A stretch of DNA of 64,000 nucleotides from Apostichopus japonicus (lineage: Eukaryota; Echinodermata; Holothuroidea; Aspidochirotida; Stichopodidae). The position numbers and the translations under genes are program-made. The DNA lies in the NCBI RefSeq assembly GCF_037975245.1, contig NC_092563.1, positions 29,287,960 through 29,351,959 of the forward strand, read 5' to 3'. Below the pieces are notes generated by a model that was not told where the DNA came from, did not search any database, and saw nothing but the letters and a program-made list of their open reading frames with translations. Position 1 is the stretch's first letter. Every line of letters begins with the position of its first letter. Below are positions 1 through 37,447 of this stretch, piece by piece.

Positions 1-196
1 ATGGCCCTGTAGGTGTGTAAAGAATCAGGTGTTTGATCTGACCCTGTAGGTGTGTGTAAAGAATCAGGTGTTTGATCTGACCCTGTAGGTGTGTAAAGAA
101 TCAAGTGTTTAATATGGCCCTGTAGGTGTGTAAAGAGTCAGGTGTTTGATCTGACCCTGTAGGTGTGTGTAAAGAATCAGGTGTTTGATATGGCCT
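1..196. repeat. 38-bp tandem repeat, about 5 copies, runs off the left edge
   Basis: Repeats of about 37-39 bases share CCCTGTAGGTGTG, AAAGAATCAGGTG and a variable ATCTGA or ATATGG junction. Copies alternate between GTGTG and GTGTGTG variants, so there is a two-unit pattern. Confidence 0.92.
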
Positions 197-17100: not shown

Positions 17101-20100
17101 TTCGTTGAAAGATGTAATTTGTTCCATTCAACTTGGCTGTGCCTCGTTGAATGGAACATTCCATCTTTCAACTCGTGAAATATTTGCACTATTGCACGAA
17201 TATAAACCATTCATTATTTGTATATTAATACCCTTTTGACTCCTCCAGGCTTTAGCAGACTTGTCAATGGGAAAAAAGAAAGTATTGGTACCTTACAGAG
17301 ACTCAGTCTTGACCAAGCTTCTACAGAATGCCCTCGGAGGTAACAGGTACGTGGATTGGGTTTCACCATCGCTGGAAAGATGTCTTTTATTGGTTCTAGC
17401 CATTACAGTGCCAATTTTGGAAGAAAAAAGTGTTGTTTAATTTCATAGGCAACTCTCTTTTTCTTACTTCTTGTACATGCTGTTAAAGTGACTGTTAGTA
17501 AACTTTGTATATTTTTCTCCATAAGATCTGACAAACTGTTAAGGGTCATGAGAAAATGGACAGAAAGTGACCGAGAGAGCTTTTGTATTTGATTGATTCC
17601 TTTCAACTGTAAAGCATCCATATATATAAGAATATAACTAAATTATTCTACCCAATTCTTAGTGAGGTGCGTGGGAGTTTGAGTTAAATATATTTCCATT
17701 TGGTTATTCTACTTTAAAGGTAGACGTGAAGCAATTGTGTAGTTATTCAACTGTAGAAGCCATGGTAGTTAGCCATGTCAATGACAACAATACCCAATTA
17801 ATATCACCAGGTCCAATGTCTTCTTTGCAAAGTAAATTTTGTATCTCCATTTGCTGTGAAAGCATTGGGTTAAAAGTGTCGATGATGACTTTTCCAAACT
17901 TCAGAAAGTCTTTTAGGCTTTTAATCATTATAATAGTTAATACAACATAAGTCACACTATGTCCTTGCTTAGTATCTTTACATGTAATGTAATGAAGTGC
18001 TGAGCACAGGCTTTAACCTGACACTTAATAATTTCTTTATTGTAATGATATAACATTGACAGAAATGTCAACATTGTGTAGTAGTTACTTTTTATCTTTT
18101 CTCTCTTTCCCGCATCGCAACAAACCAGTAAGACGATCATGATCGCAGCCCTGTCTCCTGCGGACATCAACTACGACGAGACCCTAGGCACGCTGCGATA
18201 CGCAGACAGGGCCAAGAAGATCAAGAACAAAGCAGTGGTCAACGAGAATCCTGTCGAGAAGCTGATTCGTGAACTCAGAGAAGAGAATGAGAGACTGAAG
18301 AATGCCCTGACCGGGGAAGCCCTCCCCACCCCAGAGGCATCATCAGGCATGACTGCAGCTGGTAAATATATTAGAGCCATCATATTGTATAGATGCTCTT
18401 GGAAACAAAGGAACCAGTGCCACTTTCAAATACAAGGCTATACTTTATTGGTTTTCACGCATAGCTTATTAGCAGCATAGTACAATTTTTTTTTTTTTTG
18501 GGGGGGGGGGAACCACAACATTGCAGTTATCAATTTGAAAGGGGGTTTGGGACTTTTCATAGATCAAAATAATTGGTAGAGTGAAACTTTTACAAAGGTG
18601 AGGGGAAATAATTGGATGGGAGGGGGAGAGAAAAATGCTAGGGTCAGAGGGAGGATGGCCAAACAAATGTGACTTTATATCCCCAATTACCCATTCTTGA
18701 CCCCATTGACCTATTCTCGACCCCATTTGCCTGTTCTCGACCCCATTTGCCTATGCTTGACCCATTTGCCTATTCTTGACCGCATTATCTATTCTTGCCC
18801 TCATACCCAAATGATAACAAGACTGATGTATGGTTGCAAATGCAAGGAATTAAGGGGCGAGATTGACAAATAAGTCATTCACAGAAAACTGCTGCTGAAA
18901 CCAATGACTGGGATACAAGGGTCAAGTGTGAGCACTGTTTATAAAACCTGTCATAAATTACTACATCTGTGTGCTACATACTTCCTTTAGTAATATTTAT
19001 TATCTTTCCACTAACAGAATTGGAAAAAATGAAGAAAGATATGGAAGAGGAGATCCGAGCCCAGTTAATGGCAAACCAAGAGGCTATGAGTGATATGGAT
19101 TGGGACTCCAAAGTAAGCAAGAAGGGGATCAGATATTGATATCTGGGCCATGTCATTGTCTAATCAAACCAGGGGAGGAATTTCAAAGTAATTCCTCTTC
19201 TAGCAGTATTTTAAACTTGCTAGAGTAATCTAGAGGAAATACAGCTTATAGGGTCTTTGGTCCTGGATTCCCACCAGAACTCTCTCCTTTGGTGGGCCTC
19301 CCCCCCCCTACCCCCTCTCTCTGTGAATGCTCCTCCATGTGTGGAAATAATTGAGCATGGTAATGAAAGAGCATCCAGGAAGGTAGAAGCTTTAGCAAAC
19401 AAATGCGAAAAATCTTGACAGCAGCCAGTTAACAGAGTCAGCTCTGTAAATATTCTTATCCAATACTTGTGTGTTTCTGTTATTGTTAACATCAATTCAA
19501 CAAATCTCACTGCTTACTCTACCACTGCTTACTGCTTTCTCTATCTGGGCCAAACAAACACAGACTGATGAATTGAAATGTCCTTTATCATGGGAAGACT
19601 TCTGCAAGGAAGGCAGTCCTTGTGGATCTCAGACAGACAGATCACTGCTTAAAATTAAAGTATCATCTGGATTAATGTTGCTACAAATAATTCAAATTTA
19701 TACACATAATGTTATATATAAAATTTAAATTTGTAAATTTAAATTTTTTTAAAAATAAAAATCAAATTAAAATAATTGTTTTTTAAATTTAAAATTAAAA
19801 TTAAAATATTTTGTAATGACATGAACAGCTGATTTGATTAATTATGATTGTTTTCAGCTGCAACAAACCAGATCGGAGGAGCAGGAGACCACAGGTAAGA
19901 AAGAAGTCCAAGAATCAAGAAAGAGTAAAGAACCTCACTTTGCGAATCTTAACGAGGACAACATGCTGAGTGGCGTCGTTATTCACTTCCTGGGAGCCAG
20001 TGAAACCACCATCGGTAGGAAAGATGCAGACCCAGCTCCGTCAATAACCTTGAGCGGTCTAAGGTAAAATCAGTTTAAGAATGATTATAACTTAATTTAT

Positions 20101-23100
20101 TCAAAAATTTGCATTCTTTTGTTCTCTGATCGATGAAGTTAATAAATTGATAAATACATCATGGTTTATGATTATGAACTAAAGAACACAAGATAAGCTA
20201 CTAGGCGGCTTCAGAAAAAGAGGGTTTTTTAATTAGTTTGAAGTTTTGCTTCTGTAGTTTACAAATGTTCCGTTTCTCAATTATTGCTACAAATTACAGT
20301 AAGTTTTAAATGGAGAGTAATGTGGTTGCAGTTTTGGTATTTCCTAGGTAGCCAATGTTGGCCTTTAAGTTAAAAAATTATGATCATATGCAGGAATTGT
20401 TATTTTTCATTTATTTAGTATAAGCAATGATAGATCTTCTGGGTACTTTTTTAACTTTATTGGGTGACCCTCTAGGAAAAATTGAAATGCTATGTACTTT
20501 TATGTATATATACTTTTTAATGCTCTGTCTTGTAAATATTTCTTGAAATTAAAATTTATGTTTGTTTTCAGTATCCAAAAGCAACATGCTAAAGTAACCA
20601 ATGAAAGTGGAGACATTCAGCTGATGCCAGCAAGCCCAGGGGCTAAGATTAAAGTGAATGGTGTGCCCCTCACAGGACCTCATGCCCTTCAACATTTGGA
20701 CAGGGTGGTGTTTGGTAAGTAAAATGGACATTTTACTTACGATGCATGTGACTTCTTTACACACACAATAAACTTTTGAAGGCAAGTAGCTTATGGTTTT
20801 GAGTGAGCAGCAAATTAGTTTTGTTTCTTAATAATGCTTTGTGTCAGTTGTGATAGCATAGTTAAAACATTTAGTTTGTATTGTATACCTCATGTTATAT
20901 GCATGTTATGGGGAGCTGCCAACTGAGTACTATTTTTCCATATTTTGTATGCAAAATCATGATGAATATGGGTGTACAGCTCCCCCCCCTAAAAAAAAAA
21001 TAATATTAACAATAAATATAAAAAAATAAGGGTTTTTAAAAAACAGAGTAATAAGAATAATATATGGTTTTAAAATTTTAAAATACTGGAAAGTGTTTCC
21101 AGAGGATGGCAGTTTGGACTATTATGTGAGTTGTGCCTGTGTGTTTCCTGACCTATGACCTGATCTGACCTATGACATTCACAATTCCATTGGTATCATG
21201 AAACAGCTGATAGTTTGAAAGATGATGATCAGAATTTAAGCATACATGGTATTTACCTCTTTCCTTCCTCCTACTCCCCACTACCCCTCCCAGACCTCCC
21301 TAACCTCCCTCTAACTATATCCAGTTTTAGAGATGGATGAATTTCACTTTTCTTAAAGATAAAACTTAGAGCTTAAATCTCTTCAAACATGTATTGGTTC
21401 TCTCTTGGCAGGCTCCAATCATATGTACGTCTTCAAGAATCCTAGCAACCCAACTGTCCCAGAGGGCATTCCGAAGAACATAGACTGGGAGTTTGCACAG
21501 AAGGAGCTTGCATCTGCAAAAGGGTTCACCTCATGGGGTGGAGCAGGACTTACAAAAGGTAAGAAAGGGGGGCACACTTGTAGCTGGTTAGGTATTATCA
21601 CAGGGTAGGTTTTACCATGTTGCCCACAAGTGCAATTTGAAATTTAATTTATTTGGAAAATTCAAATTATATTAGTTTGTTTTGTTTTAACTTGGAAGCT
21701 AAAAAGTCCCCCCCCTAACAATCTTCTATGCTTCAAGATCAGTAATATACATGATCTCATAGAAATTTCAGTTTACTCTGAACTAAAGTTTGCAATCTTT
21801 CTCTTCTCAGAGCAACAGTTAGCCCAGGATCAGATCCTGGAGCTGTTGCCGATGGTGAATGAGGTCAACGGTGTCAGTGAGGAATTGAACAAGCACAAGA
21901 ACTTTGAGATTGTTCTCATCAGTGGTGCTGCACAGGAGGGCAACAACAAAGAAACCAAGTAAGAATAGAGAGTTCTTCTTAGACCAAAGAGAGAACAGCA
22001 GTTTTGAAGCGCGAGACCATAATATTCTCTCCTTTGTTTCAGAGTTAAATTTTTTTACACATTAGTCTCTAGTTTTTAATTAATACTGAGTGTGATTTAA
22101 CTTGTTTCTCAAAGGAATATTCTACAGATGTGAAGAAAATTGTAAAGCTACGACAAGTTTCCTAATGTGTGTGTGTGTGGGTGGGGGGAGGGAGGGGGTT
22201 GGGTCCATAGGTAAGGGTGTGTGTATAGGACAGGTGTATGTTTAATTTTGGGAACATTCTTGAGTTTTATTGCAGTTGACCATATTTGGAACATATTTTG
22301 GGCCATTTCTGATTGTCTTTATAAACTGATTAGGTCACTCCCTGTAAGTCAATTAATGGTGGTATTTTCTTGCTTGCTATCTCAGAGTTACTGTAAAGAT
22401 GAAGAATCTTCTGAATGGGAACACATGGCTGTGGGACAGAGGTAAATTCATCAACAGGAGATACGTTGTACAGGTAAGTATCTTGTTACAGTCTTACTTC
22501 TAACATCAATTACTAAAGAAAAATTAGCTTCTCATTTGCAGTTTGATTTGTACACTTTCAAGATAAACATTAAGAAAATTATGAATTAATAAGCAGGGAT
22601 GTACAAAAGGTGGTATTACAAAAGGCAATCTGAGGCACCAAGTTTACCCCAAGAAATATTTCTGAAATAATGAAAATGTCCTGATTCTGTTAGTAAGAAA
22701 CACTGAGAAAAGATGTATTTATGTGATTTATGGTTTGTGATGATGTCTTATTTGAACTATTAATATTAAAGTTACAAATCTCACTAAACTAACCTTGCTG
22801 AGAATATCACTTTGCTTTATGTGGTGTGAATTTGATATCTAGACAAAAAATTGATGATTAACTCAAAACCCGATTGAAGAAGACATTAATGAGATGTAAC
22901 CATAAGGAATTGTAGAAGGATGGACTTTTCATGTAGGGATGCTATTTGATGCAAATTAATATGAATATCATAAATGAGTTTCATACAAGTACCTAAACAT
23001 TAATGGAAGGGAGAGGACAGTAGATGTGTTGTTTAAGAAATGCTTTGTTCCTGAATGATCTATCTTTGTACATAATCATGGAGTGTTTTTGTTCAATGTA

Positions 23101-26100
23101 CCATTTGACGTTCAAATACCGAATAAAAGAAGATGGGGGCTGGGGGGGTGGGATGGGGTGGGATGGGGTGGGGAGGGGTGGGGAGGGGGAATGAAAAAAA
23201 GAGATGAAACTATGATAGCTGATGATCTTGTATTAAATCTTGGAAATAAGAAAGACAAGAAAAAACAAATTGTATCTGTATCATGAATAAGTGAGATGAA
23301 GTATAAACAATTATATTGAGATTCAGACAGGTTTCTAAGCAATCCCAGTGTCATGTGACCATGTGGATCTGTAGAATACAATAGAATTGTAGCCCACGAA
23401 ACAAAGAATTGTTCTGTTTCAAAAATTAGGAATTGGATCCTTCAATATTCTGTATCATGTTCCTTATTTGTTTTGTCAAACTGATTCATTGTTTATCTTA
23501 GTAGGAATGGATAAATCTTTTTGGTTGTCATTTTCACTTTTGTAGTAGGGTACTTATTCAACTTCATGAATGGCATAAATATATAAGTTACTGTTACAGG
23601 AGTATACTGTTAACGTTTCCAATATCAGAAAGTTCTCTCTCTCACACCAAATAGACAGATAGTATCACAAAGAAATGTAAAACTATTTTGATTATTTTAC
23701 GATATTTTTTTGTTACCATATTTTTGTATATCGTTTCTTTTGACAAGGATCTCTACCAACGTTTCCTAGATGGAGATGAGGATGTTATGAAGCTACCCAA
23801 GGAGGAAGATCCCTTCTGGGAGCCAGCAGAGGATACCATGATTGGTACCGCTAATGTCTTCCTCCAGAGCTTGGGATTTGCTCTCGACTTTGATGATAAG
23901 ATAACTATTACAGACTTTAAGGTGAGTCTGTCATTCCCCTCCCCCCACCCCCCCTCCCCAACCCTGTCTTTCTATCTTGGTTATGGTAATCAGGGCATTG
24001 TTTGTAAAAAGATTTGGTTTTCGATCAAATATCCATGAAAGTTCAAAGGGTTTTAGTAAAATGCAAAGGTAACATAAGATGGAGAAGGTATATGAATATG
24101 AGATATATTATCCCTTCATGTATGAAAATTAAGTAAAATATGTGAAATCAGTCATGCATGTAAATAACTCTAAAGGCAATTTAATGGACTGTGTGGTGTT
24201 AGCCTATGGTTAACATACAACCACGTGCATCTAAAATTTGAAGACGATACAGTGACAAAAGTTTGACTGTAAAATATTTGAAGAGTCAATAAATGTAAAT
24301 GGTTTTGGTCAGAAACCGCGATATATGTATAACAGCAATGGTTAACAAACTTAAATCTATAGCAGGTCAGCAATATTTATTCATCACAAATCAATTCATA
24401 TAAACTACAATAGGTAACAGAGAAAGGACAGATTCTTATTCTGTTGAAGCTACTTGCAGAATAGTAAATATAAGATGAGGGCCAAACAGGTTAAAGTTGT
24501 ATTTCATTCTTTTCCAACCTGGACAGGGCAACGAGGAGGGTCATCTTTACGTTAACATTACACCATGCACCCAGCAGGGCAAACCCCTTGCTGATGAAGA
24601 CAGCTTTGTTGAGGACCCCTCAGAACTGCTGGGAAAACCTTTCCATTTCAAGGTAAATAAACACAGCACTCTAAGTGGCACTGGATAATAACATTGTAAA
24701 ACTAAATGATATCGCCTTTCAAGGAACCAATTGACTGACAGCCAAACCTCAGAATATAATGTTGTTTTTAATAGATTGCTGTCAAATTAAAACACAGATT
24801 CTTTCAAATTCAATATACAGCGGTAGAATTGATTGTAAATGTTTATTTTGAAGTGACCATTTGAATAATCGATTGATTGTTTTTCCATACATGTCATCTA
24901 TATTTCTTTTGACAGACACTTATTATTTGATAAATGGCTCTACTTGTGGTTAGGCGACATGTGTAATATTAATGCCACTTTTGTGAAGAACTTGATGCTG
25001 AATGCTAATATTGGTAAATTGATCAATGGTAATATTGGTAAATTGATCATTTTCAGGTGACCATCAGAAGTGGAGAGATCCACAAGTCAAGATACTCTAA
25101 AGGGACGTCGGTGAAGTACAAGTTTATGGATGATGCTGAATATGTACAGACTGAGACATTCAAGGAGACCCTCTCTCCCGCCTACAATCACAACAGGGTG
25201 GTATCCATACCCACCATAACCCAGGAACACCTCGATCACTTTGAACAACAAAGTATTACCTTCCTGGTCTATGGACTACAGGTGGATACTGAACCTGATC
25301 CAAGAGTGTCAAAGCTGACAACAAGGGTAATACTTGATACCTTCTAATGGGTATTAAATCAGGGGTTGGGGTGTTAGATTAGGTGGGGACCCTGATCCCA
25401 GAGTGTCAAAGCTAACAACAAGGGTAATACTTGTTACCTTGTAATGGTTATTAAATCAGGGGTTGGGTTGTTGGATTAGGTGGGGACCCTGATCCCAGAG
25501 TTTCAAAGCTGACAACAAGGGTAATACTTGTTATCTTGTAATGGTTATTAAAACAGGGGTTGGGTTGTTAGATTAGGTGGGGACCCTGATCCCAGGGTGT
25601 CAAAGCTGACAACAAGGGTAATACTTGTAACCTTGTAATGGTTATTAAATGAGGGGTTGGGGTGTTGGATTAGGTACGGGTGGTGGGGTGGAATGGAATG
25701 ATGGGTGGGAGGGAGGATGGGTGGAATAAGGCACCATAGCCAATGGGCTCCTAGAGAGCTAGTATAGCAATACCTATGAGGTCTTCACAATACAGATGGA
25801 CATTGGTCAGGTGTAGTTGCAAGCTTAAACTAAGGGTAGGATTTGGTGGTTCCATGCTGTTTAAGAGAATTAAAGAGGGGAGGGGGGGGGGGGTAGTTAG
25901 GTGGGTGTGAGGGTGTAACATAGTCATTCATCTCATGGAGAGTTTATAGTCCTATTGTGGTGTGTATGGGGTGTGTATAGGGTACAACTGGTTCCTGAAC
26001 CTGCCCTCAGAGTAACAAAGGTGAAGCACTATAAACAATTGTTCGTTGACAATCAGAAAATGAAGAGGGAATAGTGATAAAACTGCTGTGATATAGTAAG

Positions 26101-29100
26101 ACTGCCACCTTTGATGCATTACGAGATGCTGTGTCTTTTCTTCTTACAGGAACTGAGACAAATGGAGAACATGAATGCTGGAGTAGATAAAAGTCTGGCC
26201 CGTCACGGCTCTGTTAGTTTCAACAAGTCTGATAACGCAGATGAACACACTCAACTGAAGGGAGAACTGGTCCTCTTGAAGAGGAAATATGAGAGACTGG
26301 AGAAGAAAGAGAGACGGCTTCAGGTATCATCTCAACATTTACCCCTCCCCCCTCCCTCTCTCCCCCTTTATCCTTCCCTCTTGAATGGGAGTGTTCTACT
26401 TTTTTAGGCCATGAGGCTTCTTAGAACACTTCTTTACACAACTATGGATGCTGTATATTTAACGTAATCAATTATATATGTTACATCTTGTACATCCTTG
26501 TGGAAAAAAAAGTAACTGACCCCTCCTCATCATGAACCCTCCTTTACCCATGGAAAGAAATGATTGTTCTCAAATGTCAATATTTTACCATCTCTTCAAT
26601 CTCATGTCATGACTGTAAATTTGGGCCCTTTTACCCTATTAGAATAAAATAAGATGTAGTGAAAATGCTAATTAATTAATCAAGTAATTATTTCATTCAT
26701 TAATGTTGTTAATTAACTTAACTGTGGTCCTTGATCCACCAGTTTGTTTTATAATCCATGTAATATTTTGTATTTTTTTTTTATACCAGTTTTTCTGTCC
26801 GTCACATGTCTATTATTTCTACTTTGTCAGAAAGTTGTGTATTTTCAGTAGAATTAGGGGTTAAATAAAATTGGTATTAATTAATATGTAATTGATATTG
26901 TGTTAATCTTATTAATCCTAGTTTCTTTATCTACGCATTCAGGATCTATGCAAAGAGTGGGAAGATAAACCCGCCGACCAGCAGGATTACGAAGCGTTCC
27001 ATCGAGCCGTTTCTGCGGTGGCGCACAGCACTGGTACTAGACTGAAGACTCGTGTGCAGATGCTTAACAAGGTAACCATGGAAACAAAAGATCAATATCC
27101 ACGTCTGCTTCTCTTGGAGTTTTATTTACTCTGCGTTAATCTGTTGGTGGATATAAGGAGTGCTGTGTGTGTTCTTTTTTCTTGTTTGGTATTACTGAAT
27201 TCTCTTTTCATGAATTAATGAAATCGAAACATATTTCTTTTTCAATTCCTGAATATCCTAAATATGAAAAAAGGACAAATGTGATATTGATAGGAGTTGT
27301 GTAGAATACTTCATATTTATAGAAACTAATGATTTTTAAATTAATTTACACATATTTAACATTTTATTTATATTTATATTTTACTAAATAATAAACTGCT
27401 TGCTACTTGTTACTTGTTTTATTGCACAGATAAACACATAACATAGATCTTTTAATTAATAACAAGAAAACAGCTATCATGATAAGAAAGGCTTTCATAT
27501 GTTCAGAAATGTTCTTAATCTGTTTTGGATGGCATCATGATGGATATTTTACTTACATTCTAGCTGCATTTATATTTTATAGACCTTCCCCCATTCTCCC
27601 GTCCATCCTGAATGTAGTCTTATAATTATTGTGTTAGACATGCAGATACAGAGGGCAAAGGGATGTATAATGTGAGGATAGGGATTGAGGGGTGGGTGGG
27701 GCAGGGAGGGGGTGGGGCAGAGAGGGGGTGTAGATTTCATCAAGTAAATTTATCATGGACTAAATTATGATTTCTCTCATCATAGTTTGGCAGTAATATC
27801 CCATGATTGCTCTCTTGTGGTCCAAGTAGTGTCTTTGCAATTATCAATTATGTTTTTCTGAATAATATTTTCCTATAATCACTGCACTCCTTCCCTTCAT
27901 TGATAATGTCACAGGATTTCTCTTTGAAGGTAGAGTTTCCTAATAGCCCAGTATATGGTCATATTTGGAAGCTTTCTTCCTCAAACTGTACTCCTAAAAT
28001 CGAAAGTGATATTTCTTTCTGCAAATTGAAGAATTTTATGGCACACTCTGTTGTCATAAAAAAAAATTGGTTTACAGACTTGATAAAGTTGTGTACTTGA
28101 TTAGTGTAAATGTGTGATTGGGTAGGTATTTATTTTGTATGATTGTGTGTATGTTATAGTTTATTTTGTATGATTTTGTGTATGTGTGTATGTTTATTGT
28201 GTATTTTGTATGATTTTGTGTATGTGTGTATGTTTATTGTGTATTTTGTATGATTGTGTGTATGTGTGTATGCTTAGTGTGTATTTTGTATGATGGTATG
28301 TATGTGTGTGTACCATATACTCACTCATCCCTCTAATCTACTAACACCATTCAACTCTAACTTCAGAGATTTAGCAAGAGATCTCAAGCATCGCCATTCC
28401 CTTACTAACCTGAATATTGTGGTGTTTGTTTGTTCTTGTGTGAGTGTATAACAGATAATTCCTCTAAAACAATAAACTAACTAATTAAAGAGTAATCTAC
28501 TATTGCTTCTCTCACAGATTTAGGTAGCTCATCTACCCCCTGAAGTATTTGATAGGTTGTCCCTCAAACAATTCTTACTAACACAACTGGTCGATGGGGT
28601 TAGGGTGGTATGGGAGGAATGGGTTTGGGAGGTGGGTGGGTGGGTTGTTGGAAGATCTACCTCTGACATAAATGAAACTGAAATGTCCAAAACTATAAAA
28701 TATAAACTTATCCAACCAATTCCCAAATTATAGCCACCATAAAATGTATAGGAAATAGTAATGAAAATTGTGAAACTACTAATTTAGTGAAGTGTTTGTT
28801 TTTTATCTGTGTACATTCCATCATATCTTGTACTTGGGGACAAATCGTCCCATTATTTAGTATAATTGGGTGTTTCAAACAAAAGTTTCCAATTAAACAC
28901 AAAACAAACTCAAAACTGCAAACCGCAAAAAAGAAAGAAAGAGATTGTTCTTGCTTACTTCCTTTGGATCTGTAATACTGGACATAAACACAAAGTTTTT
29001 CCAAGTCAGTCGTCTCAACAAAATGTTTAAATTATTAATTTTTGTCATGACCATTCCTGGGTTAATTCACATTTTGGATGGAGCTACGGAAAACCGGCCA

Positions 29101-32100
29101 AAAAAGAGGGTGAATTTGTGACTTAGTTGAGTAGTTTTAGTAGCTTTTTAACATCACTCAAAGAGATGCTAACAATCCTCATTTTAGAAAAAGTCATATT
29201 CATCTAAACTTGATGATTAAAAATGAACTTGATGGAAACTCTTGATTCATATATAACAATTTCTTTGTTTTTCTTATTTTCAAGATCTATTTTCTTAATG
29301 CCTTTAATTTTTAGGTTTTACTCGGTCATAGACTTGCTAAAGAGAGACAAACTAATGGCAATGCTGACGTAAGACCTGATGAACTATTCACGTGTCTTTG
29401 TAGTTGTTTGTACTTTGTTTCTCACATAACCAAAATATATGAAAGGAGTTTTTCTTCATGTTTGCTGCATCTTGTCTTGAATTTATGAAAGGTTGCTTCC
29501 AAGGGTTCGGCAATTATGCTTCTTTTAGAAGCAGGAATGTATATATATATATATATATATATCTATATATATATATTTATATACATATTGATATATGTAA
29601 ACAAGTATATCAACTCTTGTGAGAAAAGTAATGTCGAGAAAACCTTTAAAAACGTGACTGAAGAAAAACTCTTTTCCTTACAGTGTATATTCTTACTCGT
29701 AGCATCTATCATAACTATTAATATTTTCAGTTATACTTCACATATTTGAGGTTGAAGACCAGTTAGAGATTCTTTACAGTATCAAATTTTTTCCTCTGTT
29801 TGGAATTTAAAAAATGGATTGGAGATCTTGTTGTGTCGTTTGCATGGCATTTCCATCCAAGGGTGTTACACGTGGTCTGTAATTCACTGATCTTCCAGGG
29901 GTGTTACACGTGGTCTGTAATTCACTGGTCTTCCAATAGGGGGGTGTTACACGTGGTCTGTAATTTACTGGTCTTTCCTGGGGGGGTGTTACACCTGGTC
30001 TGTAATCCACTGGTCTTCTTCCTCTCGTTTGTACTCTTTCACCCATCTTTACATAACTATTTCTCTTACGTAGGAAGAGGACTCAGTAAGTGTGTACAGC
30101 TTTGAGTTAGACGAAGAGAGTCGTAGAAATGCTTACGAAAGCAACGGAGTAGCGGGTAGTAATAAGCAGGCCACCAATGGCCACGCTTCTCAGGATCCCA
30201 AGGCTTCTGATTCTAAACAAGCTAATGGTACCTCAAATGGCAACCACCATGAGCATACCAATGGTATCTCATCCAAGTCCGAGGAGACTAATGGTACCAA
30301 TGGCAAATCGGATGATGTAAGGATGCCCACAACTCCCAGCTAGAAGCTGCTTTGCACCTTAGCATGGCTGTCATCCCATGGTTCACACCCATTATTACTA
30401 ACCTCAACCCCTCTGTATAACCTTTGGTGGTTCCATCAGTCAAGGTTATCACCCCCCCCCCTTCATTACCCACCTTGTCACATAATGTCTGTTCCATCGC
30501 CCGCATGTCTCCTTGCAAGCGTCAAAATTTTCCTATATTCTGTTTTTTTTGTTTACCCGTGCTATGGTTTACTGCAGAGTTGTCAATTTGTTTCTATGTT
30601 CAGGAATTAGCATTTAGTGTTTCTAGCTGTTTCTACTATCTTTAAATAGTATTTCTATCCTTAAATGAGCTTTGAATAAATTAATTTGGTAATGGTCATT
30701 GATTCTGCTCCCAAGAATATCATTAATGACACAGCAAATAATATTTCAAAGATAAAAATGAGAACTGTCGACTTGTTGCCAATTGTCTGAACATATCTTG
30801 GTATGTGTGATAAGGGTACTATCTTAGAATCTGACAGATATATGTTATACCTGGTTCGAGAGAGTTCAAAAGATGGTTTTTGCTCAAATTACATCTGCTC
30901 CAACTTGAAGATTATGTCGTACCTTGGTACAGATGTGACTATTTTAAGAGTCTTGACTCTGGTCACAAAGAAAGGGCTAGTAGACTCGGTTAGGCTAGTC
31001 ACTTTTAACATATTAAAATCTCTGCTAATTAAAGCTTGCTATGAGTGGAACTGAAAAAGTGGCACATTTTTTTCAGAATTAAAAATGTTTGTGTTTTTGC
31101 TTGGTTTATGTTTTTGTTTCAAGCTAAATCAATGTTTTGCTCAGCATTGTTCTTCATTCATTGGTTCATTCATTGATTTACTCCTTCAGTCACTCATTCC
31201 TACATACATTCATTGCACTGGTCCATATCCATTCCTGCGGTTGTCAGGGCTGCATATCTCTAATATTGTTGGTTTGTGCTCATCCATCCAGTCTGTGCAC
31301 GTTCTTGGATCCACCATTGTCAGTGGTGATGGTTCTTACAATTAAAGAATCTTTTATTTTTCAGTTTACATCAATTGATAAATTCATACCCTAACATCTG
31401 ACCATCAGGGATGTGTTTGTGGATGTGTGTGCCCTTGCTTGCCACCCTAACATCTGACCATCAGGGATGTGTTTGTGGTTGTGTGTGCCCTTGCTAGCAT
31501 TGATAGGATACCTTCACTGTGAGCTGCGACAAGTCTGAATCATTGGTCTCTTGAGTTTGAATCATTGAGGCAGTTTTTGTTTCTTTCTTATAATATCTTC
31601 TCTCAGGGAGCACAAAAAATAACTTTGATCAAGAATCAATACGGCTACGATAGAACTACTAGGATGCGTGTCAATATACGTACTTGTACCTGTCCAACCC
31701 TCATGAAGTACAGACAACTTTATTTATATTTTCCTGCAGATGAATCAAGGTCACAGAATGGTCAAAGGTCACAGTTCTAGTAGAATGTGTGTAGTCATGT
31801 AACACATGTCATCCTTATAACAAGGTATCAGTTGAGAAAGGTGTGATATTTTAACCAGTTATCATCATCAATGACAAATAAATCGATGTGTGTTAAAAGC
31901 CTAGGTCATCTTCTGTTGTTCTTCCTTTTAATCTCTTAATCTCTTTGTCTGATGACCTAAGCATGCAGGTCAAGAACTTGACAAAGGACTGCTGTCCAAC
32001 CATCCTTTTGTTCCTACATTTTGGTCTTCCTCCTATATTTCCTACTTTCCCCAAAACTACCTCCTTCTTTTTGGCCATTGATTTGCTTTGTAACATGTGC

Positions 32101-35100
32101 GAACTACTGAGCACCACATAAGAGATATAAACACGTTCTCAGTAATACTCATTATTTGGATTTCAAACATTCAATTATCCATTATGAGCAGGAATTAATG
32201 ACTTTGTTACATGTTGTCTGTGTCAGCTACTCCTTTTTCCCTACGTTTCACTTTTCTCTTCACACTTTCTGTCTTACTTATTCTAAATTTTCAATCCTAC
32301 ATTGGTCTTACTCTGGCATCACAAGGATTTGTTGGACAGGCCTGCAAGGATGATGGATTAAAGCTTTGTGGTTTTACTTGATTGTTTGTTGGTCGATATT
32401 GATGTCTGAACTGTGATTATTACCTTTCCATGAGTAATCACCATGACAACGGTCTCATAACATCATTTTAACTCATAAACGTCTTGAATATTAACCTCTG
32501 TCAGATATACAGCGAAATATAAAGCAAATCAGCATGTCATGTATAAAATGCTTTTAATCAACGTTATTTATTAAGTTATGAATATGCTATGACAAGCTCT
32601 TGCTCCATTTCACTATGTTGAAACCATTATTGGGTAGCCTTCCCTACCCTTGTATTTGCCTGCTCCTTGGCTATCAGTATGTGAACTGTCTATGAAATAC
32701 TGACAAGTCTTAGTGGTACCATGATAAACACAAGAGATTGTAGATTGTTAGTTGAGATTATATTTCTTTACCAGTTTGAGGGATTCCAAACAATTTCTAA
32801 TAATAAAGTAACTATTTGGCAAACCAAATGCAAACTGTCCAACCTTTTGAAGACTTTTGCTTCCTCAGTTCAAAGTTAAATGGTTGATAGTTATTATTAC
32901 TCAGATAATAAATTCTAATAACAGCAACAAATGATAAAGCAGCACCTTTTCTGTTTCATCAATTTGTTATATAGTTTGTCCACACTGCTGTAATACGTGT
33001 AAAATTTAAAGCTTATCAGAACAATGATTGATAAGGTGCTGAAACCCCACAGCCACAATTTTAGTTCATAACTGCTTCAAAGTAGCTGTGAAATTGTTTG
33101 TTAGTTTTTGACAAAATTGAAGAGCTAAACAAACCTAACAAAAAAAAATATAAAAAAATAAACTTTTAAGCAGTAGTTAAAAGGTGTTTATCACCAAGAA
33201 ATGCACAACATTTTAGACAACAAAAATCCCCTTTTTTTAATTGTTTTTTTTTTTCATTTACCTTGTGTTAAATAAACTTGATTTCCAGCCAGTTTGACAG
33301 ATAGGCCTTTTAGTACTATTAGGACACAATTTTTAATATAATGTGATTTGAGGTATTGCTTCCTGTTTGTGTCTCACATGACAAGGGAATGTATGACTGT
33401 GTTGGATCTATGTTCCTCAGGTGGAAGGAGTAGGGAGAGGGTAAGGTATGGGGTGAACTAGGTATGACTTTAGTCCTAACAGCTATTACCGCTTCTGTAG
33501 AATAATTCTGTATAATTATTTGCCAACAAATTTGTTGCCTTGGTGTCATACTTGTGCTAAGTGTGTGATATTAACCGCCATAACCATCAATCTATACTAC
33601 ATTAATTATTAAACGCCTCATCTGATGTAATTACTATATTCCTCTATTATTCTCTATTTATCTTATTATTACAATAATCTACTACTATATCCCAGTCTCA
33701 TCTGCCTGCTTCCCCTTCCTCGCCTCTAACCGACCTTTGACCTCTTCAAAACATCTCGCTGGGAGTTTGGCATCTTCTGCATGTTCAGAATAAGAAGCTT
33801 TATTGATTTGGCCATGTCCATATCTGAGGTCATTTAATTTTTCATACTTACCTTTGATAAAACTTCTTTGAAAGATAACAAAACAATAGGTCTAATCACT
33901 CAAAAATTACAAACATTTGGCTCATCAGTACTCTCATCTTACTGAAAAAAAATTAGAAGTCACAGTTTTTATCAAACAAAGACATGACCAGTGATCAGTA
34001 ATAATATATTTTGTCGTCTGAAAGTAGCAATTAGTGGAAAAGGGATAGGAAAGGTTTGAAACAATTAAGTACCATATTTATTATTGACTGTACGACTTGC
34101 TGATTTATCCTCTCTTAATTCTGTAATCCATTCCTGTTTATTACTAATATTTCTCTTGACTTCTATGCATATATGCCTCTTCTTCCTTATTTCAATAATC
34201 TTGTGCAGCATGTTCTTCGCCAAAAATTTCAAAAGAAATGAAGCCAAGCAATGTAACCATCTTAGTAAGAAAGGAAAGTTTCTTTGCAAGAACTGTACAT
34301 CATTGCTTCACAGCCCCCAAATGAAATAAATACCATAAGCAAATAAAAAAATGCTTTTATTAAAATTCTTTTTGTAGTTGTAGCTGTATATATCACAATT
34401 ATGTAAAAATATAGAGATTAACTTGAAGATGATCTGCCTTCTGTTTTACTTTAAAGATAAAAAGAAATGGTTTAGAGAGTACTTTTCTTGCTCTCTCACC
34501 ATTCAAATAAGAAAGCCTCAGGCATTTCTAAAAGGCTATAATACTTGTGCATTTTATGTCTCAACTGAAAGGTTATTTAGGCAGAACGTTCATGATAATT
34601 CAGAACCAAAGATACAATGTCATGGCAGGTTTTTATGCCGAATAATTGGTTTCATGGACCTGATGTTTGTTCCATCTTTGAATAACGGTTAATAGGGCAG
34701 CTGCTTGCCACAAACTGATGCCAGAGTTTGACACAGTGAACTTAAAACTGGACTAACATCTAGTACAATCAATGTTAATATTGGTGATATTGTCTTAGCA
34801 TAGATAGTAACCAATAGGTATTATTGATCTTGTGAGTGACCAGTGTAGACATCAATTTAGTTATAATCTACACTGTCATGAGCAAACCTTCCAATCAAAT
34901 AACGTCTTGTCATTATTACGATTCCTCATAGCTTGTCATACGTATGACAAACTGGTCAGTGGGAATGAATTCTTGATTTTGTTTGCATCTTACGGTAGCT
35001 ATAGTTAAATTAAATTTGGAGTTTCTTTCATCACTTTCAAATTTAATAAGCACCTTTGCTAAAACTCACTGACTTCTGATTAGTTAGTGACCTACTTTTT

Positions 35101-37447
35101 TGGTGTGTTCTTGCATTTTAAAATCAGGCATTTTCAGCGATGCTTTAGACCTACTAATAGTAACATACTAACTGAATATTCATATAGCAATAGGAGAGTT
35201 TGAAATTTGATAGTGCCGGTAAAAATTTGCTGTGGATCTAACAAGTATATTAAAGTCACCTATAGTGACTTCTTGTGATGTATTAATGTTTGTTTGTATG
35301 TAGTAATGTACTGATGTTTTAGTACATTGTATTAAATAATGTACATAATTGTTATTCATCATAGTTAATAATAATAATTCATATATAGTTAGGAAAATAG
35401 ATATATCTTCATAGTTCATCTTGAGCAAAATGAAATGAAACATGAGATCATTACTGGAAAACAAATGAGAAAAGACTTCAGCCAAGGTAGATAAAAAGTT
35501 AGAAGAGCATTTTAAAGTTAAGGGAAAGAGGGAGGGGGAAGGGGGGAGCGGGAAAGGGGGAGCGGGAAAGGGGGAGGGGGTGGACAGGAATAATGAATAC
35601 AGAAGACCTGTGATCCTGCTAGTTTGTGCTCTTGTTGTTTTCGCACTAGATTAATCGTTTAATTTTGAAAACTTAGTAAGATTGAAATTTGTTAGAAATT
35701 GGGGTCTGGTAATATTGAATTCTGCAGATGAATCAATCAATATTAATGTAATGCATACATATGCTAGAAGCCTAGAATGACCAGTCACCTACGATCAAAC
35801 TTTGTCATCACTCACACTCAGACTGTACTTTCACCACAGACACATTTCTTTGAAAGTCTAATAAAAGCTTGGAAGAATTATTGGCTGCAAGAAAAGGAAA
35901 TTTTGAAAACCAATTAAGAATTTTAAAGCAAATTTGGAGTGGCAATGGAGATGGACTTATAACAAATGAGAAGAAAAGTTTGTATCGATAAATATCAAAA
36001 TATATAAACACTTGTATGAGCCTTCGTATATTCACTCTTTACAATATGTTTTATTCATGTGCAGAACCATAATCATATTTTTGTTTTAACATTAATATAA
36101 AAATATCTAATCATATTCCTGTTTCATTGTATTCTGCACATTTACATATCCCAATACCATGATCATGTTATCCCTCCCATTGTTGATGACAGATTTGATC
36201 ATATTTACAAAACATTCATTCTCATCTTCATTTTAATCTCATTTTCACTTATATATTTGTATTGAAGACTTTTATAATTGTTTGAGTTCTCATTTATCGA
36301 TTATGTAATGTAATTCCCTATCACTACTATTATAATCAACACACACCATCATTAGTATAATCACATTTGAGGGACTGGTTTGGAAAGTCATTGTATCATC
36401 ATAAAAATGTAAAAACCTACAAATTATAACTGTTACTTTTATGACAATGTTCTTGAAAGAGAAAAGAAATTTTTGGCTGGAATTGGATAAGAAACTTGAT
36501 GGTAGTAAATAAATCTAAAAAACTCCAATAGTATATACTTCTTGGCTTGGCATGATTTGAATTGTTGACATTTAGCATTTTAACTTAGACTAATTATTTA
36601 TAGATTGCAAGAAAAAAAAAATTACCTCATACATTGCAATGTAAACATTGCACTAGGTTTAACCACAGGTATAGAATCTGGTCTGAAGAAAAAAAAAATG
36701 AATGTTTGCTTTTAAAACTGACAAAAAACACCATTGAAACAATTGAAACATATCAAGTACAGGCCATGATATCTCTAAATTTAATATAATATTTACAAAA
36801 AATATGAAACACATGTCTTGCCCTCTTTGACTTACTTTGACTTAATATTTGTTTCACTCGGCATTACAAAAACAAAGAAAGACAAAAGAAAGGAAAATAA
36901 TTTACATGACAATAGAATAATGGATTGATAAAAATATTGAATTGTTCTCCTATTGTGTTAAAAAATAACCCAGCCATTCTCTCCCAGGACCAGTCAGCAT
37001 TTGATAATAGGGTAATAAATTAGTGTTTACAATATGTATAAGCACCTTGAGATTTCTTGCATGTCTAAAAATAGAACAAAATACTTCATACCTTAGCGAT
37101 ATTGTATGGCAACATGCATAGCATGTTGTTAGCTATATTAGATAATTTTATTTGCAAGACAGCAAACTGGACATGTCTAAAAATAGAACAAAATGCTTCA
37201 AACATTAGCGATATTGTATGGCAATATGCATAGCATTTTGTTAGCTATATTAGATAATTTTATTCGCAAGATAGCAAACTGGACATTTTTTGGCCTTTTT
37301 GTCTCAAGACTTTTCTTTTTACTTCTCTCATAGATTGTTCTTCAGCCGGGCTCAAAGGGAGACGAAAACGGCAACGGAAAAGTGGTCCATGAAAACAAGG
37401 ACGGGAAGAAAGTGGAAGGAGGGAGTAAGGCTTGTATTGTACAGTAA
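2149..37447 (+). CDS. KIF28: Kinesin-3 family motor protein, KIF28/KLP-6-like (27 coding exons, spliced)
   Basis: Microtubule plus-end motor that hydrolyses ATP; family members carry membrane cargo, and the C. elegans relative KLP-6 works in cilia (known of the family). Exons assembled by hand: 2149-2165, 3263-3301, 5254-5330, 6941-6957, 7874-7896, 12397-12521, 13867-13945, 14394-14457, 14743-14929, 15372-15524, 16277-16374, 17249-17346, 18129-18361, 19018-19112, 19858-20063, 20572-20714, 21412-21558, 21811-21958, 22386-22473, 23748-23921, 24527-24652, 25057-25326, 26150-26323, 26943-27071, 29315-29368, 30074-30316, 37334-37447. All are bounded by AG/GT with matching phases, giving 1106 residues; a shorter form of 1077 ends at 30343. 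Visible: motor about 5-360 with P-loop GQTGAGKS (109-116), switch I NATSSRAH (222-229), switch II DLAGSE (258-263); FHA about 461-562; EDPFWEP (699-705) in a KIF1B-type region; C2-like/DUF3694-type region about 738-869; charged helix 870-970; N/G-rich tail. Wording such as [13 protein letters not shown] and LSGLSIQKQHA favours KIF28 over KIF1/13/16. Kinesin-3 is near certain; the subfamily is a strong inference. Confidence 0.88.
3263..3301 (+). CDS. KIF28: kinesin exon 2 (motor beta 1)
   Basis: Encodes [13 protein letters not shown], the nucleotide-proximal beta 1 and RxRP motif of kinesins. Acceptor ccacag, donor gtaata; ends in phase 2. Confidence 0.92.
5254..5330 (+). CDS. KIF28: kinesin exon 3
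   Basis: Encodes the motor segment with [14 protein letters not shown] and a tract ending HNPETP. Acceptor ttaccag, donor gtaagt; ends in phase 1. Confidence 0.88.
6941..6957 (+). CDS. KIF28: kinesin exon 4 (17-nt microexon)
   Basis: Only 17 bases, reading KDDPKT across the junctions. Acceptor gtccag and donor gtaagt are strong, and it is needed to restore phase between exons 3 and 5. Confidence 0.82.
7874..7896 (+). CDS. KIF28: kinesin exon 5 (23-nt microexon)
   Basis: Encodes FAFDFSYW, the equivalent of the kinesin-3 FxFDxSYW strand that must precede SHDAF in exon 6. Acceptor cattgtag, donor gtaagt. Found by searching the 5.4-kb gap for the missing motif; phase agrees on both sides. Confidence 0.87.
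9639..9670 (+). other. retroelement-tail-like hairpin motif
   Basis: CTGAAGAA, then the stem-loop GATCCTGCTAGGATC (9647-9661), then GAAATGTC. Motifs of the form CTGAAGAAG-stem-GAAACGTC are common at the ends of invertebrate retroelements and resemble a hammerhead core. An A-rich AAAATAAAAT run precedes it. Confidence 0.35.
10070..10082. promoter_or_regulatory. perfect X-box (RFX-type) motif
   Basis: GTTGCCTAGCAAC fits the RFX X-box consensus GTNRCC-N0-3-RGYAAC with one spacer base. It lies in kinesin intron 5. Confidence 0.45.
12397..12521 (+). CDS. KIF28: kinesin exon 6
   Basis: Encodes [11 protein letters not shown] through [22 protein letters not shown]. The [14 protein letters not shown] part is the helix before the P-loop. 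The acidic loop [13 protein letters not shown] is kinesin-3-like. Donor gtttgt is weak by comparison with its neighbours. Confidence 0.93.
12930..13814. repeat. 17-bp minisatellite, about 51 copies (kinesin intron 6)
   Basis: Unit TAACCCCTCACACACGG, with recurring junction variants (ACGG, ACGA, AAGA, ATAG, ATGG, AATG). A CCTCTC variant recurs at about 13298, 13569 and 13740 inside a longer repeated block, showing higher-order duplication. Ends 52 bp before exon 7. Confidence 0.97.
13867..13945 (+). CDS. KIF28: kinesin exon 7 (P-loop)
   Basis: Encodes [19 protein letters not shown] and then KNK. This is the Walker A loop that binds ATP phosphates (residues 109-116). The acceptor lies about 50 bp after the end of a large 17-bp minisatellite. 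Confidence 0.97.
14394..14457 (+). CDS. KIF28: kinesin exon 8
   Basis: Encodes [21 protein letters not shown], the helix after the P-loop. Acceptor ctcacag, donor gtaagt; ends in phase 0. Confidence 0.94.
14743..14929 (+). CDS. KIF28: kinesin exon 9
   Basis: Encodes [20 protein letters not shown], the canonical kinesin SxxEIYNExxxDLL signature, then [20 protein letters not shown], the strand region before switch I. Donor gtgagt; ends in phase 1. Confidence 0.97.
15372..15524 (+). CDS. KIF28: kinesin exon 10 (switch I)
   Basis: Encodes [20 protein letters not shown] (switch I, residues 222-229), then TVVTIIFNQ and NLVDLAG, the start of switch II. The second Ser of the usual SSRSH is Ala here. 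Open reading frames on the other strand across this exon are shadows. Confidence 0.97.
15534..15971. mobile_element. non-autonomous hAT-type DNA transposon with perfect 8-bp target duplication
   Basis: The element (15542-15963, 422 bp) has terminal inverted repeats: left CAGGGGTTCCCTAACT, right end complementary CAGGGTTTCCCTAACT (15 of 16). It is flanked by ATATAGAG at 15534-15541 and 15964-15971. Eight-base duplications and CAGGG ends fit the hAT superfamily. No transposase frame is present. Lies in kinesin intron 10, nine bases after the exon 10 donor begins. Confidence 0.9.
16277..16374 (+). CDS. KIF28: kinesin exon 11 (switch II)
   Basis: Completes DLAGSER and continues [19 protein letters not shown], the relay helix of the motor. 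Acceptor taacag, donor gtaagt; ends in phase 0. Confidence 0.97.
17055..17221. repeat. fold-back (inverted repeat) element before exon 12
   Basis: Arms 17055-17132 and 17146-17221 are about 90% complementary (for example AATGAATGGTTTATATTC with GAATATAAACCATTCATT) with a 13-base loop. Ends only 27 bases before the exon 12 acceptor. Resembles a fold-back MITE. Confidence 0.88.
17249..17346 (+). CDS. KIF28: kinesin exon 12 (microtubule-binding helix region)
   Basis: Encodes [20 protein letters not shown] and [13 protein letters not shown], the loop 12/helix 5 microtubule contact (VPYRDSxLTxLL). The insert GKKKV is a short basic loop; kinesin-3 motors often carry Lys-rich loops nearby. A 167-bp fold-back ends 28 bp before the acceptor. 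Confidence 0.97.
18129..18361 (+). CDS. KIF28: kinesin exon 13 (end of motor and neck)
   Basis: Encodes [40 protein letters not shown], then [20 protein letters not shown], the neck helix that follows the kinesin-3 motor. Ends in a Pro/Ser-rich linker. Base composition is clearly more GC-rich than the introns. Confidence 0.97.
18690..18800. repeat. 21-bp tandem repeat, about 5 copies
   Basis: Diverged copies of TATTCTTGACCCCATTTGCC in kinesin intron 13. Confidence 0.8.
19018..19112 (+). CDS. KIF28: kinesin exon 14 (coiled-coil linker)
   Basis: Encodes [20 protein letters not shown] followed by [12 protein letters not shown], a short charged helix between motor and FHA domain, typical of kinesin-3. 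Acceptor ctaacag, donor gtaagc. Confidence 0.9.
19729..19812. repeat. AT-rich low-complexity tract
   Basis: AAATTTAAAATT-type sequence just upstream of exon 15; contains no C or G for long runs. Confidence 0.7.
19858..20063 (+). CDS. KIF28: kinesin exon 15 (FHA domain, first half)
   Basis: Begins with a charged linker and enters the FHA fold at [20 protein letters not shown], the kinesin-3 PHLxNLNEDP equivalent, then TTIGRKDAD and SITLSGL. FHA domains bind phosphothreonine peptides; in kinesin-3 this one packs near the neck and regulates dimerisation (known of the family). Confidence 0.93.
20572..20714 (+). CDS. KIF28: kinesin exon 16 (FHA domain, second half)
   Basis: Encodes [20 protein letters not shown], then [11 protein letters not shown] and [12 protein letters not shown], matching the FHA signature (S-x-x-H, V-N-G, L-x-x-G-D/x-R-V-x-F-G). 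Confidence 0.94.
21412..21558 (+). CDS. KIF28: kinesin exon 17
   Basis: Encodes [13 protein letters not shown], the last FHA strand, then a segment with [15 protein letters not shown], the DWexAQxE linker typical of kinesin-3 after the FHA domain. Confidence 0.93.
21811..21958 (+). CDS. KIF28: kinesin exon 18
   Basis: Encodes [20 protein letters not shown] and [15 protein letters not shown], the helix and strand that open the KIF1B-type region. Acceptor ttctcag, donor gtaaga; ends in phase 2. Confidence 0.9.
22386..22473 (+). CDS. KIF28: kinesin exon 19
   Basis: Encodes [20 protein letters not shown] and [10 protein letters not shown], beta-rich KIF1B-type region. Acceptor tatctcag, donor gtaagt; ends in phase 0. 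Confidence 0.9.
23131..23190 (+). repeat. G-rich tract with quadruplex potential (intron 19)
   Basis: Many runs of three to seven G separated by one or two bases (GGGATGGGGTGGGATGGGG type) on the coding strand. It would be present in the pre-mRNA. Confidence 0.7.
23748..23921 (+). CDS. KIF28: kinesin exon 20 (EDPFWEP motif)
   Basis: Encodes [32 protein letters not shown] and [13 protein letters not shown]. The DPFWEP-IGTA-LQSL string is a kinesin-3 hallmark in the KIF1B domain. The acceptor is an AAG rather than CAG/TAG (tgacaag), so a small shift of the start is possible, but phase 0 and homology support 23748. Confidence 0.92.
24527..24652 (+). CDS. KIF28: kinesin exon 21
   Basis: Encodes [20 protein letters not shown], then [14 protein letters not shown]. 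This begins the C2-like/DUF3694-type beta domain seen in KIF1/KIF13/KIF28 relatives (G-x-L-x-V-x-I-x-P-C). Phase 0 at both ends. Confidence 0.92.
25057..25326 (+). CDS. KIF28: kinesin exon 22 (C2-like domain; ends in a tandem repeat)
   Basis: Encodes [20 protein letters not shown], then [19 protein letters not shown] and [17 protein letters not shown], the C2-like/DUF3694-type region. Its last 39 bases and the donor gtaata form the first copy of a 97-bp tandem repeat whose other three copies lie in the intron. Confidence 0.93.
25288..25675 (+). repeat. 97-bp tandem repeat (4 copies) spanning the exon 22 donor
   Basis: Copies start at 25288, 25385, 25482 and 25579. Copy 1 contains the last 39 coding bases of exon 22 and its donor; copies 2-4 repeat CCTGATCC, TCAAAGCT, ACAACAAGG|GTAATACTTG in the intron. 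Spacing is exactly 97 in each step. Confidence 0.95.
25860..25915 (+). repeat. G-rich tract (intron 22)
   Basis: A run of about 13 G following GAGGGGAG, then GGTGGGTGTGAGGG. Quadruplex-capable on the transcribed RNA. Confidence 0.5.
26150..26323 (+). CDS. KIF28: kinesin exon 23 (charged helix)
   Basis: Encodes [13 protein letters not shown], then [20 protein letters not shown] and RLQ, a strongly charged coiled-coil-like helix with leucine spacing. Acceptor cttacag; phase 0. Confidence 0.88.
26943..27071 (+). CDS. KIF28: kinesin exon 24
   Basis: Encodes [20 protein letters not shown] and [12 protein letters not shown], then [11 protein letters not shown], a helical tail segment. Acceptor cattcag, donor gtaacc; phase 0 on both sides. 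Confidence 0.88.
28123..28312. repeat. 40-bp tandem repeat, about 4.5 copies (intron 24)
   Basis: ATTTTGTATGATTNTGTGTA starts at 28163, 28203, 28243 and 28283 at exact 40-base steps, with a shorter first copy at about 28132. Confidence 0.88.
29315..29368 (+). CDS. KIF28: kinesin exon 25 (54-nt cassette)
   Basis: Encodes [18 protein letters not shown]. Acceptor tttttag with a good pyrimidine tract, donor gtaaga. At 54 bases and phase 0 on both sides it could be skipped without breaking the frame. Confidence 0.75.
29536..29582. repeat. (TA)n microsatellite
   Basis: Long TATATA run with two interruptions in kinesin intron 25. Confidence 0.9.
29861..30018 (+). repeat. about 40-bp tandem repeat, 4 copies, just before exon 26
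   Basis: GGGTGTTACACGTGGTCTGT followed by AATTCACTGGTCTTCC, four copies with variable G runs between them. Ends about 55 bases before the exon 26 acceptor. Confidence 0.92.
30074..30316 (+). CDS. KIF28: kinesin exon 26 (N/G-rich tail; alternative end at 30343)
   Basis: Encodes [19 protein letters not shown], then a low-complexity tail with repeated Asn-Gly pairs ([18 protein letters not shown]). After GAT GAT at 30316 comes a good donor, gtaagg. If spliced, the frame continues in phase 0 into 37334; if read through, nine more codons (VRMPTTPS, stop) end the protein at 30343. Confidence 0.82.
30317..30343 (+). CDS. KIF28: read-through end of exon 26 (short isoform C-terminus)
   Basis: Retention of the exon 26 donor adds VRMPTTPS and a TAG. 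An AATAAA at 30675-30680 would serve this form as a composite terminal exon. Which end is used, or whether both are, cannot be read from DNA alone. Confidence 0.5.
   Translation, partial: VRMPTTPS
30675..30680 (+). terminator. poly(A) signal AATAAA for the short kinesin isoform
   Basis: A canonical AATAAA about 330 bases after the read-through stop at 30343. Consistent with intronic polyadenylation. Confidence 0.45.
31388..31499. repeat. 56-bp tandem duplication
   Basis: Two copies beginning ACCCTAACATCTGACCATCA at 31388 and 31444, nearly identical. Confidence 0.92.
35522..35583 (+). repeat. purine-only G-rich tract
   Basis: About 60 bases of almost pure A/G with repeated GGGAAAGGGGGAGC. 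Could form quadruplex or triplex DNA. Confidence 0.65.
37061..37284. repeat. 112-bp tandem duplication just before exon 27
   Basis: Copies 37061-37172 and 37173-37284, each beginning ATGTCTAAAAATAGAACAAA and ending GCAAACTGGAC, about 93% identical. Ends 49 bases upstream of the alternative last exon. Confidence 0.95.
37334..37447 (+). CDS. KIF28: kinesin exon 27, alternative last exon ending in a CaaX-like box
   Basis: Acceptor ctctcatag, then an open phase-0 frame of 37 codons and TAA. It contains [20 protein letters not shown] and ends SKACIVQ. It continues the Asn-Gly and Lys-rich composition of exon 26 and is markedly more GC-rich than its AT-rich surroundings. The final C-I-V-Q fits a protein prenylation motif with Gln last, which would favour farnesyl transfer. 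A 112-bp tandem duplication ends 49 bp before the exon. It lies 7 kb from exon 26, so the linkage is inferred from phase and composition. Confidence 0.66.
   Translation: MVLQPGSKGDENGNGKVVHENKDGKKVEGGSKACIVQ

Follow-up and report, generated by a model that had tools for sequence, protein, structure and literature searches.

Candidate CaaX-box ends in a KIF28/KLP-6-type kinesin-3 gene of Apostichopus japonicus and in its paralogs

Introduction

The locus described here raises, in a defined form, the question of how kinesins of the KIF28 type grip their cargo, namely whether such a motor could be tethered to membranes through a lipid on a CaaX box, the pattern C-{DENQ}-[LIVM]-x at the extreme C-terminus of a protein. 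The window, i.e. the whole stretch of 64,000 nucleotides of sea cucumber DNA that was analysed, had been described in a first-pass annotation as carrying a kinesin-3 gene whose last exon may add a C-terminal Cys box.

Within the subfamily, KLP-6 localises to cilia according to PMC4519175, and a mitochondrial role has been reported for mammalian KIF28/KLP6 (PMC8077471). In A. japonicus itself, the Kif28p gene BSL78_16398 is given among the differentially expressed genes of triploid animals (PMC8027599). The present analysis deals with the gene model, its possible 3' ends, its relatives in the same genome and the route by which a lipidated tail may act.

Results and discussion

Gene model and subfamily

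The window gene is a KIF28/KLP-6-type kinesin-3 of 26 exons on the plus strand (2149-30316). The hand-built model gives a stop-free core of 1069 residues, and all of its 25 introns are bounded by GT..AG.

Exons 1-5, plus strand: 2149-2165, 3263-3301, 5254-5330, 6941-6957, 7874-7896
Exons 6-10, plus strand: 12397-12521, 13867-13945, 14394-14457, 14743-14929, 15372-15524
Exons 11-15, plus strand: 16277-16374, 17249-17346, 18129-18361, 19018-19112, 19858-20063
Exons 16-20, plus strand: 20572-20714, 21412-21558, 21811-21958, 22386-22473, 23748-23921
Exons 21-25, plus strand: 24527-24652, 25057-25326, 26150-26323, 26943-27071, 29315-29368
Exon 26, plus strand: 30074-30316, Asn-Gly-rich hydrophilic tail, TAG acceptor, ending GAT/gtaagg, phase 0 on both sides

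Exon 26 has a codon score of 0.47, which none of 98 controls reached. Two tandem repeats lie within the body of the gene. The intron directly ahead of motor exon 7 carries 52 tandem copies of a 17-bp unit, CCCCTCACACACGGTAA, at 12929-13815, and a 97-bp unit repeated 3.9 times (25294-25675) overlaps the end of exon 22; because this repeat covers the exon end, the exon 22 donor region (after 25326) occurs several times over with almost the same sequence.

Matches above the Pfam cut-off were obtained for Kinesin (1.6e-102), Microtub_bd, FHA and KIF1B, together with a Kinesin_assoc match below the cut-off, and a MATH-like region was named through the alignment with KLP-6. The top match among solved structures is C. 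elegans KLP-6 (PDB 7wrg; E 3.3e-221, residues 2-883), followed by KIF1A (3.3e-123, residues 3-406) and KIF13B (1.7e-107), both of whose chains comprise the motor and neck alone. When the comparison was confined to the motor, KLP-6 still came first (3.3e-140 as compared to 1.4e-123). The closest family is thus not kinesin-7 (CENP-E), as evident from the top matches KLP-6, KIF1A and KIF13B. These sequence comparisons support membership of the window gene in the KIF28/KLP-6 subfamily of kinesin-3, and the first-pass assignment to the KIF28 type is borne out by the E-values of KLP-6 and KIF1A over the full protein.

Possible 3' ends of the window gene

Three ends can follow exon 26 in frame, and poly(A)-like signals lie downstream of each of them.

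Read-through end of exon 26, plus strand: 30317-30343, VRMPTTPS and then a stop, without a CaaX box
Candidate last exon 27a, plus strand: 31740-31802, ending SSSRMCVVM, CVVM codons 31788-31799, phase 0 from 30316
Last exon 27b, plus strand: 37334-37447, following tctctcatag, ending SKACIVQ, CIVQ codons 37433-37444, stop 37445-37447

The first-pass annotation had proposed the splice from 30316 to 37334 and the resulting SKACIVQ end. On translation the coordinates proved exact, and the phase 0 join of donor 30317 to acceptor 37334 stays in frame, adding 37 residues to give a protein of 1106 residues; at the level of the reading frame, the CIVQ extension of the kinesin is confirmed. Provided that 30316 joins 37334, CIVQ fits C-{DENQ}-[LIVM]-x directly before the stop.

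Acceptor 37334 scores 11.1 by the wider PWM (52nd of its 67 training acceptors) and 6.1 by the smaller PWM, where the gene's own 25 acceptors range from 1.7 to 13.3. Among the 42 acceptors scoring at least 6 between 30.4 and 45 kb, it is the joint top of the 19 that open a frame of at least 12 codons. The codon score of 27b is 0.483 per codon, whereas the mean is -0.304 for 698 equal-length open stretches taken from introns and from downstream DNA, of which not one is as high (0/698). Exon 27b is also the only one above 0.1 among 32 phase-0 candidates of at least 20 codons between 30.4 and 63 kb. As a coding-like segment it scores 22.8, the eighth highest of all plus-strand segments of the window and the top one among the plus-strand segments listed beyond 37 kb. 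Its peptide has a single match in the genome, namely itself, and an ATTAAA (37802) and an AATAAA (38490) lie downstream. A second frame of 27b scores 0.16 per codon, and the segment score of a G/A-rich repeat (35469-35618) is 17.2 as against 22.8 for 27b; purine-rich DNA is thereby seen to inflate the codon measure. Two 112-bp direct repeats, 94% alike, occupy 37060-37283 and end 50 bp ahead of 27b.

Candidate exon 27a is nearer to exon 26 than 27b and had been overlooked in the first-pass annotation. Its acceptor scores 9.6 (39th of 67) and an AATAAA follows at 31877; in codon score the exon is neutral, with a value that 448 of 1922 controls attain.

The donor shared by both exons is weak. 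By the smaller PWM, built from 25 of this gene's sites, donor 30317 scores 2.8, less than any of the gene's other 25 donors (5.6-13.0); by the wider PWM, trained on 67 introns of which some may be spurious, it scores 5.2, the seventh lowest of 67. An alternative donor within exon 26, at 30085, was tried and set aside, being no stronger than 30317. The read-through form would have 1077 residues; its additional codons score -0.44, a value taken over 8 codons only and too short to inform, and an AATAAA is located at 30675-30680, 332 nt past its stop. From these several possible 3' ends we infer that the window gene may use alternative 3' exons.

Elsewhere in the window, a minus-strand coding-like segment at 50234-50452 (score 22.9) carries the motifs IKEEP and IKVESPE and may represent an exon belonging to the next gene; a Pfam search of this segment returned no match. 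Another coding-like segment lies on the plus strand at 62597-62737 (score 21.4). At 55849-56753, 32 tandem copies of a 29-bp unit leave open stretches of up to 211 codons in more than one frame; these are no evidence of a gene.

Paralogs with candidate CaaX ends

When the KIF28-specific region was used as a query against the 671.58 Mb assembly (35 contigs), two further genes were found, here C18 (pieces 43-52% identical) and C4 (31-37%). The best solved-structure match of C18 is KLP-6 (1.8e-246, with KIF1A at 4.7e-113), and that of C4 is again KLP-6 (5.5e-214), the sole match at 1e-110. Pfam Kinesin and KIF1B are found in both proteins and FHA passes in C4; no Pfam FHA was reported for the C18 protein. 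Identities are 50-56% among the three KIF28-type proteins and 47-50% with KLP-6, the C4 protein being compared without its first 78 positions. A five-row tree that includes KLP-6 and KIF1A does not resolve its four KIF28-type rows, and therefore the age of the box is not readable from the tree.

Beyond about 12 kb of each genomic piece, the 3' splice sites of the paralogs were checked by hand, and these replace spliced-alignment ends with forced micro-exons.

C4 end exons, reversed piece g4: 11846-11983, 12761-12841, 13332-13488 and 14244, in phase, reading NQHTC, then DHQPSQSSSVCVLM and a stop
C18 competing last exons E_a and E_b, reverse strand: about C18:960416-960893, some 200 nt apart, following ARLEKKL

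In the C4 gene, a strong donor (8.2) and a final acceptor of 11.4, the best of 27 listed over the next 6.5 kb, permit an end in SSSVCVLM. The 13-codon last exon has a neutral codon score, and an additional exon is possible near 13079-13144 with the phase preserved. In C18, E_a has an acceptor of 11.8 and ends in DILNE without a box, with an AATAAA 78 nt past the stop; it is similar to the C4 tail, a likeness equalled by 2 of 1000 shuffles. E_b, starting at 13297 of the reversed piece g18 in phase 0 with an acceptor of 6.5, ends in KNGKKTTSKACSLS and a stop, so that C18 can terminate in the farnesyl-type CaaX box end GKKTTSKACSLS. The exon ahead of both has an acceptor below 5. An earlier start of E_b at 13243 was discarded in favour of 13297 as its acceptor scored only 1.25; from 13243 none of 101 controls has as high a codon score, and from 13297 the score is 0.38. 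Besides itself, the E_b peptide has one genome match, at E 4.6. Upstream of the box, E_b does not significantly resemble either of the other two tails (966 and 842 of 1000 shuffles did as well), and aligning 27b and E_b as DNA yielded no likeness (180 of 1000 shuffles as good).

Candidate CaaX ends across the three loci

The frequency of such ends was assessed by scanning the three KIF28-type loci (124 kb, both strands, three phases) for frames of at least 13 codons behind acceptors scoring at least 6. The scan gave 1127 frames. The pattern C-{DENQ}-[LIVM]-x closes nine of them, five with M, S, Q or A as the last residue; among these five farnesyl-type frames, two have one stop in common. When each stop was counted once, the farnesyl-type box C-{DENQ}-[LIVM]-[MSQA] was present in 4 of 35 in-phase ends, i.e. 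those lying no more than 8 kb downstream of one of the three genes, as compared to none of 884 others (Fisher p 1.8e-6). With acceptors of at least 4, the figures are 4/62 and 2/1655 (p 2.2e-5). These p-values are descriptive and no blind test, because all four CaaX ends were known before the contrast was run.

The ends of 27b and C18 have K-x-GKK...SKAC in common, a likeness equalled by 13 of 5000 full shuffles and by 56 of 5000 with the box kept. For 27a and C4, 30 of 5000 full shuffles are as good; these two agree mainly in the box, since 931 of 5000 shuffles are as good when it is kept. The last residue is Q in 27b, M in 27a, M in C4 and S in C18. Ser stands at -3 in all four ends, and the residue at -1 is non-polar throughout (Ala in 27b, Met in 27a, Val in C4, Ala in C18).

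By their sequence, then, all three KIF28-type genes are able to end in a CaaX box. The first-pass proposal of a box in the window gene holds as a sequence feature, and this reading is strengthened because the two paralogs can likewise end in farnesyl-type boxes.

Comparison with KLP-6 and other CaaX proteins

C. elegans KLP-6 and mammalian KIF28 belong to the same subfamily as the window protein by sequence (residues 2-883); the end of KLP-6 differs in being without Cys. In the tagged KLP-6 chain, residues 887-928, which reach the native length of 928 given in PMC10945585, include neither a Cys nor a CaaX box. In this sole other-species tail compared, the Cys box that the earlier annotation proposed to look for in orthologs is absent; the box was therefore lost in the KLP-6 line or gained elsewhere, and the KLP-6 tail counts against its conservation across the whole family. 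Two tail-only queries of solved structures did not retrieve KLP-6, and when genome contigs were scanned with the KIF28-specific region, none of the 45 pattern matches proved to be a relative.

Kinesins with a CaaX box are already known. CENP-E ends in the CaaX box CKTQ, which is farnesylated and on which its role in the fibrous corona depends (PMC10630089); it is a kinesin-7 with a kinetochore role, and no relationship of its tail to the present ones was found as far as tested. Kinesin-CaaX of Trypanosoma brucei is farnesylated (CVIM) and localises diffusely without the box (PMC3206815), but has been reported from kinetoplastids only and is not a KIF28-type kinesin-3. Among the matches listed in the open-licence literature, as far as these sources go, there is no prenylated kinesin-3, which does not prove absence. 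A precedent for choice among lipid tails is CDC42, whose alternative last exons yield C-termini with different lipids (PMC6411841); CDC42 is a small GTPase and not a motor, and its case is established by RNA and protein data, whereas the present one is drawn from sequence.

Possible prenylation and ciliary sorting

A Gln at position X favours farnesyl by the usual rule, as stated in PMC12609287, and by that rule the residues Q, M, M and S of the four ends are predicted to favour farnesyl. Exons matching prenyltransferase families occur in the genome, at three loci for the beta family and at two for the alpha repeat, an assignment to the level of farnesyltransferase together with its sister enzymes. 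ICMT matched at one locus and GMP_PDE_delta at two, the latter again at the family level, PDE6D and UNC119 being taken together.

In PMC5512577, high-affinity cargo of PDE6delta has Ser at -3 and Ile or Met at -1, while low-affinity cargo has Lys at -3. All four ends (4/4) have the Ser at -3; the small Ala at -1 lies outside the cases compared from PMC5512577. INPP5E and GRK1, which are sorted by PDE6delta/ARL3, have Ser at -3 as here, and Ile and Met at -1 as against Ala, Met, Val and Ala in the present ends (PMC5512577). To this extent the four ends resemble the high-affinity PDE6delta pattern of ciliary farnesyl cargo. In worms, the prenylated RAB-28 uses the PDE6delta ortholog in cilia, as described in PMC7043889.

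From these features we infer the joining of the exons in RNA, prenylation, and a membrane or ciliary role of the tail. The motor, with its motor, FHA, KIF1B/MBS and MATH-like regions, would continue into a flexible hydrophilic tail ending in a CaaX box. Protein farnesyltransferase would lipidate the Cys of the box, and the tail end would then be trimmed and methylated. The farnesyl group may serve as a membrane anchor for cargo coupling, taking the part that PH or PX domains play in other kinesin-3s. With less confidence, the PDE6delta/ARL3 carrier may recognise the farnesylated tail and sort it to cilia, the site of action of the nematode relative KLP-6; this step is suggested by the Ser at -3 and the non-polar residue at -1 that the four ends have in common. 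Since there are two candidate CaaX last exons and a box-free read-through end, the 3' exon used (CVVM at 31740, CIVQ at 37334, or read-through) could decide which lipid tail, if any, the protein receives.

Alternative explanations

We put the probability at about 0.68 that the window gene encodes a KIF28/KLP-6-type kinesin-3 with a CaaX tail and a farnesyl membrane anchor, with possible ciliary sorting and 3'-exon choice. There may be no splicing choice at all, one CaaX exon, most likely 27b, being the constitutive 3' end, the read-through a mere intron and 31740 unused. This is a real if lesser possibility, as only the exon at 37334 exceeds a codon score of 0.1 among the 32 phase-0 candidates (at least 20 codons, 30.4-63 kb), the read-through codons lack a coding-like score and paralog C4 showed one CaaX end; the weak donor 30317, the poly(A)-like signals past each of the three ends and the two candidate last exons of C18 speak against it. 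That the CaaX exons are real and their boxes not prenylated, or that the Cys end serves another purpose, e.g. as a C-terminal binding motif, appears unlikely. A box by itself is no proof of modification and KLP-6 manages without one; however, the four ends, though their boxes differ, all retain Cys at -4, have an aliphatic residue at -2 and finish in a farnesyl-type X, and for this reason selection on prenylation fits better than selection on one peptide sequence.

Chance resemblance, with a protein that ends in VRMPTTPS and an acceptor 37334 never joined to the kinesin, is improbable in view of the coding score, acceptor, phase and uniqueness of 27b and of the CaaX ends of both paralogs, even though the donor is weak, an AATAAA lies 332 nt past the read-through stop, the intron is 7 kb long and purine-rich DNA can raise codon scores. 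Going beyond the preferred reading of a farnesyl-anchored motor, KIF28/KLP-6 motors might be lipid-anchored by descent, their alternative last exons picking a Ser-rich farnesyl tail (SSSxC-V-x-M) or a polybasic tail (GKK...SKAC), with the proteins being ciliary cargo of PDE6delta/ARL3 and the route lost in nematodes; this wider proposal is speculative and, as a whole, doubtful.

Conclusions

Three genes with four different boxes make a stronger hypothesis than any single four-residue motif. The farnesyl anchor, if real, would be a concrete mechanism of cargo coupling for a kinesin-3 without PH or PX domains, and, if PDE6delta recognises the tail, it would hint at how the motor reaches the ciliary membrane.
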